This document shows, piece after piece, positions 21,803-58,322 of a DNA stretch of 64,000 nucleotides (positions are counted from its first letter, which is position 1; every line of letters starts with the position of its first letter). The stretch lies in assembly GCA_945874145.1 (NCBI GenBank), contig CAMCFN010000001.1, forward strand, positions 62,001 through 126,000. The letters are read 5' to 3'. Source of the DNA: Akkermansia muciniphila. GTDB taxonomy: Bacteria; Verrucomicrobiota; Verrucomicrobiia; Limisphaerales; SXTU01. The notes beneath the pieces were generated by a model. It saw only the letters and a program-made list of their open reading frames with translations. It was not told the origin of the DNA and searched no databases. A program made the position numbers and the translations under genes.

Positions 21803-21932
21803 CGCCCCCCGCAGCCGCCAAGATAAAGAGGCGGAGGTAACTGCGTTCCAACAGCGCCCCCGCCGCTCGCCGTAACCCCCAAAAATTCCTGTAAGCTTTC
21901 TCCGCTCCGCCGCTATACCCGTGCAGAAGCTC

Positions 21933-22511
21933 ATGCCGATCGAAGCCATCACTCCTAACGCGACCGAGGCCGCGCTCATCCGCGCCGTGCAGGCCGGGGA
22001 CACCGCCGCCTTCGAGCCGCTCGTGGACACGCACCTCGATTCCCTCCGCGCCTTCATCGCGCTGAAACTCCCCGTCGCGCACCTCGTGGATGAGCTGGCC
22101 CACGAGACCTTCGTCTTCGCCTTTCGCAACCTCTCCGGCTTCACCGCCGGCACCAGTTTCCGCGCCTGGCTCCGGGCCATCGCCGCGAACCTCATTCGCG
22201 CCGAGCTCCAGCGCTACGCCCGCGAGCAGCAGAACCAGTTCAACTACGCCCGCGCCCGCGAGCTGGAACGCAGCTTGATGACCGGCCCCGGCGCGAGCGA
22301 ATCCGCCGAGGTCGAGCACCTGCGCGATTGCGTCGCCGGCCTGCCGCCGCATTTGCAGGAACTGGTCGAACTGAAATACACGCAAGACCAGCCCATCGAG
22401 ACCATCGCCACCAAGCTCACGCGGTCGGAAAACGCCGTGTGGCAAGCCCTCTTCCGCCTCCGCGCGCAGCTCAAGCTGTGCGTCGAAGACAAACTCGGGA
22501 GGACGGCGTGA
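21933..22511 (+). CDS. RNA polymerase sigma factor, ECF-like (sigma70 family)
   Basis: A 192-aa protein from the ATG at 21933 (an in-frame GTG at 21921 would give 196 aa). The N-terminal region LIRAVQAGDTAAFEPLVDTHLDSLRAFI matches sigma region 2, and AGLPPHLQELVELKYTQDQPIETIATKLTRSENAVWQALFRLRAQL matches the region 4 helix-turn-helix. Intermediate regions are short, as in ECF sigma factors. It is followed by a membrane protein with an anti-sigma-like N-terminus, and the two are separated by a repeat-containing 94-base gap. Confidence 0.9.
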   Translation: MPIEAITPNATEAALIRAVQAGDTAAFEPLVDTHLDSLRAFIALKLPVAHLVDELAHETFVFAFRNLSGFTAGTSFRAWLRAIAANLIRAELQRYAREQQNQFNYARARELERSLMTGPGASESAEVEHLRDCVAGLPPHLQELVELKYTQDQPIETIATKLTRSENAVWQALFRLRAQLKLCVEDKLGRTA

Positions 22512-22601
22512 ACTGCGAATGGCGAATGGCGAATGGGGAACCTTACTTCGGCGCGCTGCCGAACACCGATTCGCCATTCGTCATTCGCAACTCGCCATTC
22601 C
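22511..22601. repeat. Inverted repeat of GCGAATG units between sigma factor and anti-sigma-like gene
   Basis: About three tandem copies of GCGAATG read out of the sigma factor stop codon (22514-22535), and an inverted set of the same units (TCGCCATTCGTCATTCGCAA and CTCGCCATTCC) lies at 22569-22601. The two arms could form a long stem in the intercistronic RNA. Whether this affects expression is not known. Confidence 0.65.
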
Positions 22602-22605
22602 ACTC

Positions 22606-24093
22606 ATGATTTCCGACGACCAACTCATCGCCTACCTCGCCGGCACGCTGCCCGCCGAGGAGAGCGCGCGCGTCGAGACCGAACTGGCGAGCGACCCCGA
22701 GAGCTTGCGTCGCGTGCTGGACCAAGAGCGCCTCGACACCGCGCTCAAGCTCCTGCTCAACCCCGCCGCCACCCGCGAGCGCGTGAAGGCCTCCGTCCTC
22801 GCCGGCATCCGCACCCCTACGCACACCGTCTCCGCCGAGGAAGTGATGAAGCGCGTGTTACTGGAGACGGGAAAAAGCGCCTTGGCCTATCGCCCGTCGA
22901 AGGACGAGCAAGGGCCGGGACTGCTGGCCGCTCTGCGAGGCGCGTTGATGGAATGGCTGGGCACCGCCCAAGGACGCGTCGTTTTCGCCACCGCCGCCCT
23001 CGCGCTGCTGTTCGTCCTCGTGCAAACGTGGCGTCCGCCTGCGGGTAAACCGGTCGGCAACTTGGCCCAAAAGCCCGCCGTCACCTCGACGAACTCCGTC
23101 CCGTCGGTGGCTGGCGCGGTTGCCCCGCCCACCGCCCGCGACCCCGTCCTCTGGCCCTTCGCCGCCGACTCGCCGTGGAACACACCCATCGGCTCCGGCG
23201 CGCAATTCGCTGCCGTTGCGCCCGGCGGCCTCGACCTCACCACCGGCATCATGCTCGTCTCCGCGCGGCTCTCGCACCCCAGCTTCCGCGAGACGCCCAC
23301 GGATGCGCCCGTTGAGTTGCTCGTCGCCGGCCAACCCGCCCCACTCGCCACGCTGCGCCTGCCGGACGCCGCGCTCGCCGCCACCGCTGTCGCGCGTCAG
23401 CTCCACCTCATCGCCGCCGACGGCTTCACCCTTTACGAAGTCTTCGGGGCCCAACGCGCCGCCGGGCGCGTGCTCACCGCAAACAACATCAAACGCCACG
23501 ACCTGCGTGGCTCCGGCGTCCCGCCCGACTTCGCCAGTGCCAACGGCAGTGGCCTCACGCCCTTCGCCGGCAGCCTCACGCGCGCCGAATTGAACGGCCC
23601 CATCCGCCGCGTCCTCGGCTCCGTCGTGCCCTTGGAAGCCGTTGCTACGAAAGCCGACGGAGCCGCGCACGTCTGGCCCGCTGGCTGGTCCCCGGCGAAC
23701 AACCCCGCCCTCCGCGCCAAACTCGCCCCGCGCGGCAACGTCCACCTCGGCTCGCTCCTCGCCCTCCCGCCCAGTGTGGACCTCGCGAGCCTCGGTGTCG
23801 GCACGAACGGCCCGGCCTACGAAATCGCCCGCGCCCTGCAAGACTACGGCCTTTACGTGAAGGATGCCTTCGACGGCGAGTGGTTCACCGAGTGGCACCA
23901 ACTCGGCAGCCCCCACCTCATCATTTGCGGCGACTTCGCCTCCCCCGCCGACCTCCCGCCCAACCTTCGCGCGCAACTCGCCCTCGTCATCCACCACCTG
24001 CAAGTGGTCGTGAACAACGGCCCTGGCAACATCGGCGGCGGCGGCCAACCCCGCGTGCAAGCACCCGCCCCGCCCTTCATCACACCACCGTGA
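22606..24093 (+). CDS. Putative membrane anti-sigma-like protein with large periplasmic domain
   Basis: A 495-aa protein from ATG at 22606. Residues 1-90 (ISDDQLIAYLAGTLPAEESARVETELASDPESL) resemble the N-terminus of anti-sigma factors, without the HxxxCxxC zinc motif. One transmembrane helix is at about 123-141. Residues about 175-495 form a large extracytoplasmic domain starting WPFAADSPWNTPIGSGAQF that I do not recognise as a named family. Its position directly after the sigma factor gene suggests a regulator that senses an envelope signal through the outer domain. This is inference from context. Confidence 0.65.
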   Translation: MISDDQLIAYLAGTLPAEESARVETELASDPESLRRVLDQERLDTALKLLLNPAATRERVKASVLAGIRTPTHTVSAEEVMKRVLLETGKSALAYRPSKDEQGPGLLAALRGALMEWLGTAQGRVVFATAALALLFVLVQTWRPPAGKPVGNLAQKPAVTSTNSVPSVAGAVAPPTARDPVLWPFAADSPWNTPIGSGAQFAAVAPGGLDLTTGIMLVSARLSHPSFRETPTDAPVELLVAGQPAPLATLRLPDAALAATAVARQLHLIAADGFTLYEVFGAQRAAGRVLTANNIKRHDLRGSGVPPDFASANGSGLTPFAGSLTRAELNGPIRRVLGSVVPLEAVATKADGAAHVWPAGWSPANNPALRAKLAPRGNVHLGSLLALPPSVDLASLGVGTNGPAYEIARALQDYGLYVKDAFDGEWFTEWHQLGSPHLIICGDFASPADLPPNLRAQLALVIHHLQVVVNNGPGNIGGGGQPRVQAPAPPFITPP

Positions 24094-52159: not shown

Positions 52160-55100
52160 TCACTTCTTTCCTGTCGCGACTGGCGCACCCGAAATGAAGT
52201 AGGCGAACAAGTCCTTCACCTGCTGCTCGGTCATCGCATCGAGCAGGCCTTCGGGCATGAGGGAGGTGTGGCTGGCGCGCATGTCCTTGATGTTCGTCCG
52301 CGAGAGCACGGTTTTGTTGCCGCCGATGTCCAACAGCGTGACGGAGGTTTTCGACAACTCAGTGACGAGGCCGGTTAGGGCCTGGTCGTCGTGCGTGGTG
52401 ATGTTGAAGGCGATGAACTCTTCGCGGATGGCCAGGCTCGGGTCCACGATGGCGGGGAGGATGAAGTCCAGGTTGTCGCGCTCGTAGCCGGTGAGGTCGG
52501 GGCCGATTTTGCCGCCTTCCTTGTTCAACGTGTGGCAGACGGCGCAGGCGAGCTTGAAGACTTCCTGGCCGGCTTTCGCGTCGCCCCTCGGGCCGGCGAG
52601 GAGTTTCTTCACCTTCGCGATTTGGGCTTCCTTCTCCTCGCTGCTCTTGGTGAGGCGGCCCCAGTGCTTCTTGATGACCGCGTCGCTGGCGGCGTCCTTG
52701 AACGCGGTGATGGCGAGCAGGTTCGCGATGGAGATTTGCTCCTTCTTGAGCTGGCCCTCGTCCACGGCGGCGAGGAGGCGGCGGGACCAATTGGGTCGGC
52801 TGGCGAGCGCAGCTTGCGCGGTGTCGCGAAGCTTTCCACTGAAGCCGGGGTAAAGGTCGAGCAGCTCGCGCGCGATGTCCGGCGAGGCGAAGCGCTGGAG
52901 GGCGTTGACCAAGTCAAGGCGCAGCGCGTCGCTCTTCTCGAAGCGCAGGAGCTTCAGGAAGGTCGGCACGGCGGCCTCCACGCGGCGCTCGGCGAGGAGC
53001 GTGATGGTCTTGCGACGGTCGGGCTCGGGGACTTTCGCGTCGCTGATGCGGGCGAGCGCGGCCTGCGCGGCGGGCGCGTGACCGAGGCGGACGGCGAAGC
53101 TGATGAGCGTGGGCGTGGGCGGACGGCTGGCCCACAACTCGGCAACCTTCTTCGCGAGCACGGCGGGAACGGACTTTACCGGGTCCCCTTGCAGGCCGGC
53201 TTCCATGCCCTTGATGAGTTCGTCGGCATCAGCGGGGCTGGGTGCGAGGGCGAAGAGTTTCGCGGCGGTTTCGAGATTCGCGGCGGTGCGCTCGGCGGTG
53301 AAGCGCTGGCCGAGGCGCGCGATGATAAACTTCTGCACGATGGGCGCGTGCCAGAAGGTGCTGTCCTCCAACATGCGGAGAATGGCGTCGCGGTCGGTGA
53401 CGCACTTGCTCTCGACGGCCCACCAGAGCAGGAGGGGAACGTGCTTGTCGGTCACGTCCTCGCTGCGCAGGAGCAGTTCACGTGTGATGGGCAGGGCGTC
53501 CTTGCCCGGCAGTCGCGTGACGGTGCTGGCGAGCTGCGCGCGGACTTCGGCGGCGGGTTCGAATTTCGCAGTGGCGAGCAGGGCGACCTGCTGCGCGGGC
53601 GTGACGCGCTTGCGGTCACCGAGCAGGCGGATGGTCCAGTAGCGGACCATTTCGTTCGGGTGCTTGAGGGTTTGCAACGCGAAGGAGTCGTCGAAGCCGC
53701 CGCAAGCGTTCACGGCCCAGAAGGCTTCCAAGGCCAAGTGTTCAGTGTTCAGTGATTCAGTATTCAGTTTGGCGGTCGAGGCCACGTTGGCCTTCGGGGA
53801 CTGAACACTGAACACTGACTTACTGAACACTAGCTCCTTGAGCTTCGGCACGAGCGCCTTGTCCCCCCGGTCCCACAGCACGCGCAGTGCGGTCTGGCGG
53901 TGCCACTTGTTCGGGTGGCCGAGGAGCTTGAGGAGTTCGTCGCTGGACAGCTTGCCGAAATCCATTTTCTCCCAGCCCACTTTCGCACCGGTCGCGGAGA
54001 GCCGGTAGATGCGGCCGGACTCCTTGTCCCAGGTGTCGCGCGGGTCGAGGTGGCTGAGGCGGCTGTCGCACCAGTCGGCGAAGTAAATCGCGCCGTCGGG
54101 GCCGGTCTTCATGTCCACGGGGCGGAACCAGCGGTTGCTGGAGAGCACGCTCGTCTCGATGTCGGCGGTCTGGAAGCTCGAGGTGTCGCGCGCAACCTTG
54201 CTCGCCATCACGCGGCTCGTGAGCGCCATGCCGACAACGATGTGCCCCTCGTATTGCGGAATCGCGCCGCCCTCGTAGTAGAGCATCGCCTGCGGGAAAC
54301 GCGGCTCGTAACCCTTGTGCGCCATGTGCTCGAACCACCCAAAGCGATACGGGCTCATCGCGGGGCCGTGCTTGGACCAGCCCTTGATGTAGAGCGCGCC
54401 TTGGGCGTAATGCAGGCCGCGCGTCTGGCCGTAATTCGAACCGGAGAAGACGCGGCCTTGCGCATCGAACTCGACGGAGAACGTGTTGCCACCGCCCTCG
54501 GCAAAGACCTCGAAGTCGCCGCTCACGGGATGATAACGCCAGATGGCCTGGCCGAGGAACTTCACGCCCTTGATGTCCGCCGTGCAGGTGCTGCCGTGCG
54601 CGCCGTAAAGCCAGCCGTCCGGCCCCCACGCGAGCGAGTTCGCGCCGCTGTGCGTGTCTTCGAGGCCGAAGCCGGAGAGCTTCACCTCGGGCGGGCCGTC
54701 GGGGATGTCGTCACGGTTCTTGTCCGGGTAGAAGAGGAGATACGGCGGGTTCAACACCCACACGCCGCCGCGACCGGTGACGACACTGCGCGCAATGTTC
54801 AGGTCGGAGACGAAGTCCTTGGCCTTGTCGAAGACGCCGTCGCCGTTGGTGTCCTCGAGGATGGTGATGCGGTCCTTGCCCTTGAAGTGGTTCGGCGGCG
54901 GCGGCGGAACCTTGTCGTAAATGGCGCGGAGGTATTGATCATACTTCGTGACCTTGAGACCGGCGGGGAAAGGGTATTGGAGATACTGCACGACCCACAT
55001 CCGGCCACGGTCATCGAAGTGGATATTCAGCGGCTGGCGGACCATCGGCTCGGTGGCGGCGAGGTCCCAGCGGAGGCCGGGGGCGACTTGGAATTGCGCG

Positions 55101-55267
55101 AGCGACTCGGCGGGCGTGGGCTTCGCGGAACCGTCCTGAAGCATCCCACCGCCTTTGAAGCGCTTCACGAACTCGGCCATCTCGGGCGTGAAGCGCGGGT
55201 CCGGCGGCGCGTCAGCGGCGTGAAGGGAAACGGCGATGGCGAGAGCAGCGAAGGTAAGCAGGCGCAT
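52160..55267 (-). CDS. PVC-type heme-binding CxxCH protein (propeller, HEAT repeats, cytochrome c)
   Basis: A 1035-aa exported protein from ATG at 55267 with a Sec signal. Residues about 50-470 form a glucose/sorbosone dehydrogenase-like propeller (IHFDDRGRMWVVQYLQYPFP, LAWGPDGWLYGAHG). About 520-880 are HEAT repeats. The C-terminal region has a cytochrome c site, KLACAVCHTLNKEGGKIGPDLTGYERDNLDF, followed by an end region with FNITTHDDQALTGLV. Residues about 479-511 are encoded by an inverted repeat (see 53737-53831), placed between propeller and HEAT part. Such proteins are abundant in Planctomycetes/Verrucomicrobia and are thought to act in sugar oxidation or electron transfer. Confidence 0.9.
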   Translation of the reverse strand: MRLLTFAALAIAVSLHAADAPPDPRFTPEMAEFVKRFKGGGMLQDGSAKPTPAESLAQFQVAPGLRWDLAATEPMVRQPLNIHFDDRGRMWVVQYLQYPFPAGLKVTKYDQYLRAIYDKVPPPPPNHFKGKDRITILEDTNGDGVFDKAKDFVSDLNIARSVVTGRGGVWVLNPPYLLFYPDKNRDDIPDGPPEVKLSGFGLEDTHSGANSLAWGPDGWLYGAHGSTCTADIKGVKFLGQAIWRYHPVSGDFEVFAEGGGNTFSVEFDAQGRVFSGSNYGQTRGLHYAQGALYIKGWSKHGPAMSPYRFGWFEHMAHKGYEPRFPQAMLYYEGGAIPQYEGHIVVGMALTSRVMASKVARDTSSFQTADIETSVLSSNRWFRPVDMKTGPDGAIYFADWCDSRLSHLDPRDTWDKESGRIYRLSATGAKVGWEKMDFGKLSSDELLKLLGHPNKWHRQTALRVLWDRGDKALVPKLKELVFSKSVFSVQSPKANVASTAKLNTESLNTEHLALEAFWAVNACGGFDDSFALQTLKHPNEMVRYWTIRLLGDRKRVTPAQQVALLATAKFEPAAEVRAQLASTVTRLPGKDALPITRELLLRSEDVTDKHVPLLLWWAVESKCVTDRDAILRMLEDSTFWHAPIVQKFIIARLGQRFTAERTAANLETAAKLFALAPSPADADELIKGMEAGLQGDPVKSVPAVLAKKVAELWASRPPTPTLISFAVRLGHAPAAQAALARISDAKVPEPDRRKTITLLAERRVEAAVPTFLKLLRFEKSDALRLDLVNALQRFASPDIARELLDLYPGFSGKLRDTAQAALASRPNWSRRLLAAVDEGQLKKEQISIANLLAITAFKDAASDAVIKKHWGRLTKSSEEKEAQIAKVKKLLAGPRGDAKAGQEVFKLACAVCHTLNKEGGKIGPDLTGYERDNLDFILPAIVDPSLAIREEFIAFNITTHDDQALTGLVTELSKTSVTLLDIGGNKTVLSRTNIKDMRASHTSLMPEGLLDAMTEQQVKDLFAYFISGAPVATGKK
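53737..53831. repeat. AGTGTTCAGT inverted repeat inside the PVC cytochrome gene
   Basis: The arms at 53737-53768 and 53800-53831 are made of AGTGTTCAGT-type units in opposite orientation, separated by a 31-base loop. The frame stays open, so the element encodes SVFSVQSPKAN...STAKLNTESLNTEHL in the protein. This kind of repeat is normally seen between genes. Confidence 0.85.
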
Positions 55268-55299
55268 AACGTGCAACGGGTGCGGAGTTCGTGATACCG

Positions 55300-56894: not shown

Positions 56895-58322
56895 TCAGTC
56901 CGCAAACAGCTCCTCCACCGCGAGCTTGCGGCCGGTGGCGGCGTCGCGGATTTCGGCGCCGAGGCCGTGGGGGGGCGGGGTGGCGAGCTTCTGGAAAAAG
57001 TTGGGGAAGGTCTTCTTCACGCAGGCGGGATGCTTGAGTTTGATGCCGTGTACTTTCAAGCCGAGAACCGCGAAGCACATCGCCATGCGATGGTCGTCGT
57101 AGGTTTCGATTTCCGCGCCGTGGAGCGCCGAGGGGAAAACCGTCAGCGTGTCGCCCTCCTCGATGATCTTCGCGCCGCACTTGGTCAGCTCCGTCCGCAA
57201 CGCGACCACGCGCTCGCACTCCTGCACGCGCAGGCGACCGAGGTCGGTGAAGTTGGCTTGCTTCATCACCAGCAGCGGAGCGGTGGCAATCGCGGTCATT
57301 ATCGAGTCGCCCAAGTCACGAATCCGTGAAACGTCGAGCTCCGGCCCGTGTTGAGCATCTTCAGCCTGCTTCTTCGCAAATGCGGCAGCGTCCAGTGCAA
57401 AGACTTGCTTCACGAATGAGGGGGTGAGCGATTGAGCACCGGCGAAGTAGGTGAAGAAACGTTCGTCAATCTGCCAGCCGGACCGGGGCCAATTCTTGAC
57501 CTGAACGGCAGGGCGTGAACTCCACCCGGTTTGGCCACTAGCGTCTTTGGTGTTCTCCAGTAACTCAAGCGTACCTGCCGCCCAAAAATAACTCCCGCTC
57601 GACGCGTCCGGCTCGATTTGGAACTCGCCGCCCTTGGCCGGGAAGACCTTCACCAGCTCGCGGGTCATGTCCACGTAGGGCAGTTCGTCCTCGTTCGCGC
57701 CGGTGATTTCCACCTGCCAGCCGCCCACGCCGCCCGCCAGCAGCAGCGCGGAGGCAAACTGCGAACTGTCCGCCACACTGACCGAACACGCACTTTTGCC
57801 TTTTGCCTTTTGCCTTTTGCCTTCGCCGTAGATGACGGCGGGCAGCTTGTCGTTCGGCGAGTCCACGCGGTAGCCAAGTTCGCGCAGGGCGGCGAAGAGC
57901 GCGGCTTGCGGGCGCTCGTGCATCCGGGGCACGCCGCTGAGGCGATACACGCCGTCGCCGAGGCAGACCATCGCCGCGAGGAAGCGCGCCGCCGTGCCCG
58001 CGTTGCCGACGAACAGCTCCAGCGGCCGCTCCGCCGTGCCCGCGCGCGGGAGGCGTCCGCCGAGGCCGTCCACGGTGATGGTGCGGTTGCAGGACTCGGC
58101 GGGGTCGGGCTGCACGTCCACGGTGAAGCCCAGAGCGCGGAGGCAGTCGGTCATCACCTGCGTGTCCTCGCTCCAGAGCGCGCCGCGCAAGGTGGTGCTA
58201 CCATCGGCGAGCGCGGCGAGGATGAGGGCGCGGTTGGTGATGCTCTTGGAGCCGGGCACGGTGACCTCCGCGCGCACGGGCGGCGTGAGCGGGACAATCT
58301 CGATGAGCGGTGGCAGCGGCAT
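56895..58322 (-). CDS. aroA: 3-phosphoshikimate 1-carboxyvinyltransferase
   Basis: A 475-aa protein from ATG at 58322, longer than the usual ~430. Motifs are PGSKSITNRALILAALADG, FVGNAGTAARFLAAM, ASGSYFWAA, RDLGDSIMTAIA and the ETYDDHRMAM catalytic stretch. It makes EPSP in aromatic amino acid synthesis. Extra segments lie at about 168-177 (encoded by a tandem heptamer repeat) and, compared with other family members, at about 252-276 and 291-331. The core motifs are intact, so it is likely active. Confidence 0.92.
   Translation of the reverse strand: MPLPPLIEIVPLTPPVRAEVTVPGSKSITNRALILAALADGSTTLRGALWSEDTQVMTDCLRALGFTVDVQPDPAESCNRTITVDGLGGRLPRAGTAERPLELFVGNAGTAARFLAAMVCLGDGVYRLSGVPRMHERPQAALFAALRELGYRVDSPNDKLPAVIYGEGKRQKAKGKSACSVSVADSSQFASALLLAGGVGGWQVEITGANEDELPYVDMTRELVKVFPAKGGEFQIEPDASSGSYFWAAGTLELLENTKDASGQTGWSSRPAVQVKNWPRSGWQIDERFFTYFAGAQSLTPSFVKQVFALDAAAFAKKQAEDAQHGPELDVSRIRDLGDSIMTAIATAPLLVMKQANFTDLGRLRVQECERVVALRTELTKCGAKIIEEGDTLTVFPSALHGAEIETYDDHRMAMCFAVLGLKVHGIKLKHPACVKKTFPNFFQKLATPPPHGLGAEIRDAATGRKLAVEELFAD
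57794..57821. repeat. Four perfect 7-bp tandem copies (TTTTGCC) inside aroA
   Basis: TTTTGCC is repeated four times exactly at 57794-57821. The element reads in frame on the minus strand as GKRQKAKGKS. Seven-base repeats rotate the reading frame, so the peptide is a mix of Lys/Ala/Gly. Similar short tandem repeats are known between genes in cyanobacteria and other environmental bacteria. Confidence 0.85.

Follow-up and report, generated by a model that had tools for sequence, protein, structure and literature searches.

The window, the 64,000-nucleotide stretch of contig CAMCFN010000001.1 (assembly GCA_945874145.1, here genome G000) that was analysed, carries on its minus strand an intact gene for a PVC-type cytochrome (Table 1), the product of which matches the Pfam families DUF7133, HEAT_2, and cytochrome c as well as TIGR02604 and TIGR02603. 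Inside this gene lie two arrays of heptanucleotide units in opposite orientation, each arm comprising four units, one of them 8 nt long, and a remainder. On the plus strand, the left arm, which is the 3' arm in the reading direction of the gene, reads AGTGTTC, AGTGTTC, AGTGATTC, AGTATTC, and AGT, and the right or 5' arm reads ACTGAAC, ACTGAAC, ACTGACTT, ACTGAAC, and ACT. The 8-nt unit of the left arm (plus strand, positions 53751 to 53758) is also present in the orthologues of G004, G006, and G007; that of the right arm (53814 to 53821) recurs in G004, and G006 has a shorter right arm. Eight matches to the unit with at most one mismatch were found in the window, six of them within positions 53737 to 53831, whereas 100 shuffles of the window averaged 1.49 matches and never exceeded 5. 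The 95-mer folds as DNA at -27.5 kcal/mol (z = -8.34) and as RNA at -47.9 (z = -9.44), and none of 200 shuffles folded as well in either case.

The cytochrome reading frame is open across the whole segment, and the earlier note's description of two opposed arms in the coding region with the frame unbroken is confirmed: the heptad-unit hairpin inside this gene is real. Two of its details need correction. Measured against relatives of about 60% identity that lack the insert, the extra length is about 24 residues rather than about 32. An AlphaFold model (24 sequences; mean pLDDT, 78.8) places the insert not between the propeller and the HEAT repeats but in a predicted loop (residues 487 to 511; pLDDT, <50) that joins two helices of the helical-repeat domain (473 to 483 and 514 to 524).

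Table 1. Heptad arrays and associated features in the window
Feature	Positions	Strand	Remarks
PVC-type cytochrome (DUF7133 / Piru_Ver_Nterm, HEAT repeats, CxxCH haem domain)	52160..55276	minus	1038 aa, intact; Pfam and TIGR matches
Left heptad arm	53737..53768	plus	32 nt, AGTGTTC family, 4.4 units
Core between arms	53769..53799		31 nt, unique
Right heptad arm, inverted	53800..53831	minus	32 nt
Intergenic heptad hairpin, other family (GCGAATG ... ATTCGCC)	22515..22600		
In-frame GGCAAAA x4.4 array in aroA (ORF 56895-58322, minus)	57793..57823	minus	

The seed AGTGTTCAGT was found 105 times (47 + 58) in the 4.58-Mb genome G000 and its reversed control 3 times (1 + 2), so the heptad unit is no chance word in this genome. 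One hundred of the 105 matches were followed, and 52 of the 60 stretches of G000 fetched besides the window were picked for their seed content; AACACTG arrays are over-represented in the sample for that reason, and the most strongly over-represented words in these mostly seed-picked stretches are 11-mers of the AGTGTTC-type unit. The 1.08 Mb covered holds 52 elements with at least two seeds, compared with 1 in the reversed sequence. They share a unit core of AGT..TC with two freer positions. Thirty-one are two-armed, with the same arm order in every one, and 21 carry seeds in one orientation only. By location, 28 are intergenic, 17 lie in frame within genes, and 7 lie at gene edges; the further copies that the earlier note proposed to look for in the genome, including those between genes, are thus present.

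Genes were called with our own scripts, and each of the 17 genic host proteins of G000 was confirmed by Pfam. Eleven are PSCyt1-PSCyt2-PSD1 paralogues (10 with all three Pfam domains and one without PSCyt1), and the others are the window cytochrome, PheT, LarC, DnaE, a U32 peptidase, and a glycosyltransferase. Judged by eye, 8 of the 11 PSD1 paralogues have the element in one linker, before a D-P-E-N motif or its place, and 2 have it in the linker before PSCyt2; a strict regular expression for the PSD1 linker, which gives no frequency, matched 8 times in G000 and never in G005 or G012. PSD1-family matches number 96 to 140 per genome in G000 and its congeners, a large paralogue family in which linkers are frequent sites of elements.

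The unit AGTNNTCAGTNNTCAGT is present in all 11 genomes of the genus, a group of uncultured Verrucomicrobia, with 25 to 229 matches each compared with 0 to 13 for the control, the margin being small in G008, G009, and G010 (32 to 45 compared with 9 to 12). Beyond the genus its distribution is patchy: counting even a single match, it occurs in 60 of the 146 genomes from the order and in 74 of the 288 from the phylum. The reversed control, itself a heptad of the TGACTNN type, is richer than the searched unit in G228, G244, and G326, with 232 to 314 matches. Congener records with known titles are metagenome-assembled genomes, and several titles (Klebsiella pneumoniae, Proteobacteria, and Akkermansia muciniphila; L061, L064, L071, and others) look wrong, as these records encode close orthologues of the cytochrome. 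Other heptad families occur in the window itself, where the intergenic hairpin of Table 1 fills a 94-bp gap between tandem predicted genes (21921 to 22511 and 22606 to 24093).

Orthologues of the cytochrome are 87 to 91% identical among congeners, and the fragment in G002, left out at the insert site because the gene is cut, is 96% identical. The same hairpin occupies the site in G000, G004, and G006, and a related hairpin with rewritten arms occupies it in G007. In G001, G003, G008, G009, and G010 (records L032, L033, L037, L039, and L041) the site has a palindrome of the GGGGAGAGGG type, with the sequence SPSPLGGERAGVRG or one near it, and G005 has another sequence. Outside the genus, G039 (69% identity) has yet another palindrome-like insert; the insert is absent from G012, G017, G027, L069, L070, and L114 at about 60 to 62% identity (some of these possibly one genome under two identifiers) and from G034 at 55%. 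The segment's absence from orthologues, which the earlier note had anticipated for an insertion, is thus borne out at about 60% identity and does not extend to the congeners G004 and G006, the copies of which are alignable, or G007; since the copies of G000, G004, and G006 can be aligned, the cytochrome copy is old rather than a fresh insertion. Framing the insert as a class of one unit also proved too narrow, as other heptad families and palindromes fill the same linkers in congeners, and the earlier interpretation of the cytochrome insert is, overall, partly supported. A palindrome related to the GGGGAGAGGG type was also seen in DnaE of G001 (L199).

Orthologues within the genus were compared for PheT, DnaE, one PSD1 protein, the U32 peptidase, and AroA, and each of the five has one loop in which the heptad arrays differ among congeners. 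The U32 loop holds seven kinds of array across the genus: CAGTGTT type in G000; CAGCGGT in G007, G008, and G010; AAAGTTC in G005; GTCGAGA in G004; GTGAC-like in G001 and G006; GCGAATT-like in G003 and G009; and CTCAACG-like in G002. In PheT the loop carries CAGTNNT in G000, G002, G004, G005, and G007, a CAGCGGT-like array in G008 to G010, AATCCAG in G003, a GCGGAGT-like array in G006, and another palindrome in G001. G007 and some others have a short PSD1 loop, and the LarC linker has CAGTNNT in G000 and a GTTCAAG-like array in G005. AroA, with an array of its own in the window (Table 1), is the cleanest case: its linker carries GGCAAAA in G000, G002, and G004, GAATCCA in G003, AATCAAA in G001, AATCCAA in G008, and CAAACTC in G006. 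In G005 and G007 a larger palindrome, its core containing heptads, occupies the linker, so that nine species show five heptad units or a heptad-bearing palindrome at one linker. The AroA search gave no match in G009 or G010. In G003 an identical 34-nt GAATCCA array was found, by eye, in the unrelated genes pheT and aroA (L183 and L292). When a small set of 80 gene pairs of G000 and G005 was surveyed for indels, 8 indel linkers were found, 2 of them with heptads. A longer palindrome that starts with GTAGGAGACGACGTGAGGAGTCTC and has heptad arrays in its core was noticed in aroA of G007 (L294), aroA of G005 (L297), and G005:C132:20001-40000 (L230), and neighboring genes of G005 have similar peptides (SSRREEAP ... 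SLLTS) flanking arrays.

Within G000, the elements have arms in common and hardly have cores in common: the mean core score is 6.86, compared with 6.22 to 6.45 for shuffled cores, and the core at 53769 to 53799 was not shared with other elements of that genome in an element-versus-element comparison. In the quarter of G000 searched, no match above control was found that would mark the cores as captured from elsewhere. The complementarity of an element's own arms did not exceed that of arms swapped between elements (793 of 2,000 permutations), and pairwise upkeep of each hairpin is for this reason not supported. Between species, mismatches were counted at 22 of 399 arm positions and 47 of 224 core positions in seven same-type pairs at four sites, a comparison limited to pairs classed beforehand as the same type, which biases it toward conserved arms, and in which the pairs are not independent. 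Arm changes fall evenly over the three codon positions (6/138, 7/128, and 9/133), as do not those of the host genes as a whole (569, 353, and 1,822 of 6,476); core changes number 19/73, 11/78, and 17/73. The arms thus look maintained as DNA and not as peptide.

Some arms appear to have changed in place. Arrays of different types in PheT align without gaps, most of their units being changed, and in both the cytochrome of G007 and the PSD1 protein of G005 most arm units have ACTAA in place of ACTGA, with the odd 8-nt unit retained. We read these arm changes as rewriting in place, for which replacement by an array of the same length may be an alternative; the weight lies with the gapless PheT alignment and the 8-nt unit shared in the cytochrome and PSD1. 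A lag-7 substitution test, which mostly reports array homogeneity, gave values below 0.025 in 8 of 10 cross-type pairs, the exceptions being two DnaE pairs, and 0 in two same-type pairs. Among two-armed elements, 8-nt unit spacings were found in genic copies (4 of 54 spacings) and not in the others (0 of 57 spacings), small numbers that are as expected if slips that keep the frame are retained. The frame is open in 12 of 12 genic elements, which are open by definition, and in 13 of 19 other two-armed elements (p = 0.059); selection for an open frame in genic elements is only suggested, and a genic enrichment is not claimed.

We favor, with modest confidence, a dispersed class of heptad-array hairpins that spreads, is rewritten as DNA, and is tolerated in protein loops. 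An array of the class repeats a short core up to about five times at a 7-nt pitch, to a length of up to about 31 to 35 nt (unit number by eye), and it is often paired with an inverted copy across 20 to 57 nt of unique core to give a hairpin of about 50 to 100 bp. Its copies occur in intergenic gaps and, in frame, in loops of ordinary proteins; one loop holds different heptad families across congeners; and in shared genic copies the arms are conserved as DNA, third codon positions included, while the cores diverge. As for mechanism, the arrays may spread as short fold-back DNA and would then be homogenized or overwritten, either between copies or between the two arms of one copy, so that some arms change unit by unit in place. 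A successful insertion would require both a protein that accepts a flexible linker and an open frame preserved by its length and by unit slips, and the encoded peptide itself would probably have no specific role. Weighing against this reading are the age of the cytochrome copy, the barely shared cores, the arms that pair no better within an element than between elements, the 2 of 8 indel linkers with heptads in G000 and G005, and the metagenomic origin of the congener records.

The strongest competitor, which we hold possible if unlikely, is local birth alone, in which slippage biased toward 7 nt and template switching between arms would make the arrays and nothing would move. Tandem units of exactly 7 nt exceed chance, and these counts, like the inverted pairing of the arrays, are evidence for the favored reading. 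At lag 7, the 1.08 Mb of G000 contains 49 arrays with at least 11 matches, 31 of them in coding sequence; the 0.8 Mb of G005 contains 39 and the 0.33 Mb of G012 contains 15, the G005 stretches having been chosen for length of contig and those of G012 by contig number and earlier matches; in the same parts, periods 4, 5, 8, 10, 11, and 13 gave 0 to 5 arrays and periods 6, 9, 12, 14, and 15 gave 2 to 18. A stricter scan of G005 gave 44 arrays of period 7 (23 intergenic, 17 inside predicted genes, these being gene predictions only, and 4 at edges) and 0 to 8 arrays of periods 5, 8, 10, 11, and 13; 17 of the 44 have an inverted partner within 110 bp, compared with 0 of 44 in the control. Slippage would be expected to make longer arrays progressively rarer. 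With a looser score, by which periods 6, 9, and 12 are also numerous (44, 45, and 31 in G005) but mostly shorter, period-7 lengths instead peak at 24 to 35 bp (51 of 67 in G005, 20 of 26 in G012, and 57 of 84 in G000). Single 7-nt steps would, moreover, break the frames of pheT, dnaE, and aroA. The frame problem and the length distribution together disfavor slippage alone, and the recurrence of one unit family at 52 sites within the 1.08 Mb of G000 and the 34-nt array in two unrelated genes of G003 also speak against purely local origins. On the other side stand the many different units within one genome and the stepwise, concerted unit changes seen in PheT and in AroA (AATCAAA, AATCCAA, and GAATCCA in G001, G008, and G003). 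Heptamers have also been reported as the most abundant long simple repeats in the majority of genomes surveyed, with polymerase slippage proposed as the cause (Mrazek 2007, as cited in PMC4679880).

The occurrence of different repeats at the same spot points to a process that repeatedly places or rewrites heptads in tolerant loops. A dedicated writing activity, in which a polymerase that is templated or iterates, or else an exchange of cassettes, would deposit arrays of some five units, frequently paired in inverted orientation, and could replace the array already in a loop with a new unit, is a speculative form of such a process that we regard as doubtful. Were it true, loops and gene gaps would be slots rewritten in step and not passive landing sites.

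An ordinary MITE or REP/REPIN, moved by a transposase (IS200/RAYT-like or other) that recognizes the hairpin ends, we consider improbable. The dispersed palindromes of about 50 to 100 bp, more than half of them intergenic (28/52), and the inverted arms (31/52) in constant order (31/31) are what it would lead one to expect, and Y1 transposase matches occur in 8 of the 11 genomes of the genus (1 to 3 each). However, no Y1_Tnp match was found in G000 (82% complete), G003, or G009, and a Y1 transposase is somewhat disfavored as the mover. REPINs depend on RAYT transposases, and REP/REPIN elements are not known to contain heptad arrays. Plain copy-and-paste predicts shared cores, and it is disfavored because the cores are hardly alike and had no match above control in the quarter of the genome searched; shared cores as proof of it were rejected. 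Many unit families with one architecture also fit this explanation poorly.

We think it more improbable still that the arms are inverted binding sites, iterated at a 7-nt pitch, for a DNA- or RNA-binding protein, kept by selection, for example, for mRNA stability or nucleoid organization. The scarcity of changes at third codon positions of the arms (9/133, compared with 1,822/6,476 in the same genes) and the unit core with its two freer positions are consistent with such sites, as are the gap sizes: 22 of the 34 non-genic copies with neighbors on both sides lie in gaps of 76 to 149 bp, many of them largely filled. Against this, related species hold different families at the same site, the genic copies lie in unrelated genes, and the unit is patchy over the order (60/146 genomes). 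Non-genic copies lie between tandem genes in 28 of 34 cases, compared with 340 of 494 gaps of at least 60 bp in the background, a preference too weak to claim.

Old allelic variety at the loops, redistributed between species as gene segments recombine homologously, is highly improbable: on a five-gene tree (node support, 48 to 100, some of it weak) the array types, labeled by the analyst from the orthologue comparison, change 26 times over five sites and, as recombination would have it, fit clearly better than shuffled labels at PheT only (19 of 1,000 shuffles as good, compared with 338 of 1,000 at the cytochrome and 1,000 of 1,000 at the remaining three sites), but in the cytochrome gene, the sole gene examined for this, same-type flanks are not consistently closer than different-type flanks, and flank recombination as the cause of type swapping was rejected.

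The favored reading, a spreading and rewritten class of heptad hairpins tolerated in loops, touches genes that are normally essential. The genes pheT, dnaE, and aroA are housekeeping genes of this kind, and their arrays have a period that is not a multiple of three and differ between related species at the same residues; interchangeable arrays in such genes are not easily explained by slippage or ordinary transposition. If confirmed in isolates, they would mean that repeat DNA supplies and re-supplies protein loops in free-living bacteria, would amount to many natural linker-exchange experiments, and would open to direct test why heptamers prevail among the simple repeats of bacteria. Peptides of such a kind probably turn up in many environmental genomes. 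Annotators would, on the same proviso, be warned that peptides such as SVFSVQS...LNTEH or KRQKAKGK are repeat derived.

The open-licence literature searched did not yield any account of heptad hairpins that replace one another in protein loops. The array sequence gave no hit on bacterial repeats by title, the peptide strings of the inserts, that of the GGGGAGAGGG-type palindrome included, gave no match, and searches naming Verrucomicrobia gave no such report, in line with the earlier note's remark that such elements are not known to be described for that phylum. That literature describes heptamer repeats and Rickettsia palindromic elements (RPEs), not their combination.

Several known systems share one side of the present elements. 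REP and REPIN sequences are short dispersed palindromes (PMC3733652) that are mostly intergenic, and the elements here are like them in these respects and unlike them in the lack of a Y1 match in G000. Heptamer long simple sequence repeats have a unit of 7 and are scattered in the genome (Mrazek 2007, via PMC4679880); unlike them, the arrays here have a length peak at 24 to 35 bp, often form inverted pairs, and are frequent in genes despite a unit length not divisible by 3. The TAACTGA repeats of Beggiatoaceae are described in the same source (MacGregor 2015, PMC4679880) as mostly direct repeats just upstream of start codons, with a few in ORFs and a single inverted set; heptamers related to them form repeats seldom if ever. 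They too are heptamer arrays, and TCAGTTA, their reverse complement, matches the TCAGTNN unit of the present elements. The present elements differ from those few-in-ORF repeats in their inverted arrays, many families, and in-frame loops: direct repeats upstream of start codons are not the rule, as 31 of 52 elements are inverted pairs and 17 of 52 lie in genes. The GGGAATC heptamer arrays of Xanthomonas and Nostoc, the majority of which have four units and some of which are intragenic, are G-rich, quadruplex-forming direct repeats according to PMC4692102, unlike the inverted pairs in interchangeable protein loops described here.

The closest parallel is with the protein-coding palindromes of Rickettsia (Ogata 2000, 2002), which measure about 105 to 150 bp and encode a conserved peptide according to PMC10969869 and PMC2229807, the latter of which also lists a reference whose title reports coding palindromes in Wolbachia. 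Like RPEs, the present elements are dispersed palindromes found both between genes and in frame in unrelated genes (28 intergenic, 17 in genes, and 7 at edges), where the protein tolerates them. Unlike RPEs, they have arms that are 7-nt arrays, cores that are not shared, and many coexisting families, different ones of which stand at one loop in different congeners, and they show no whole-element consensus with a conserved peptide: the arms are shared, the cores diverge, and unrelated units stand at the same loops. The earlier note's comparison with Rickettsia thus holds for in-frame copies in other genes and for intergenic copies and fails for a single conserved element, and on our best reading the class probably works like the Rickettsia protein-coding palindromes and is not a member of them.
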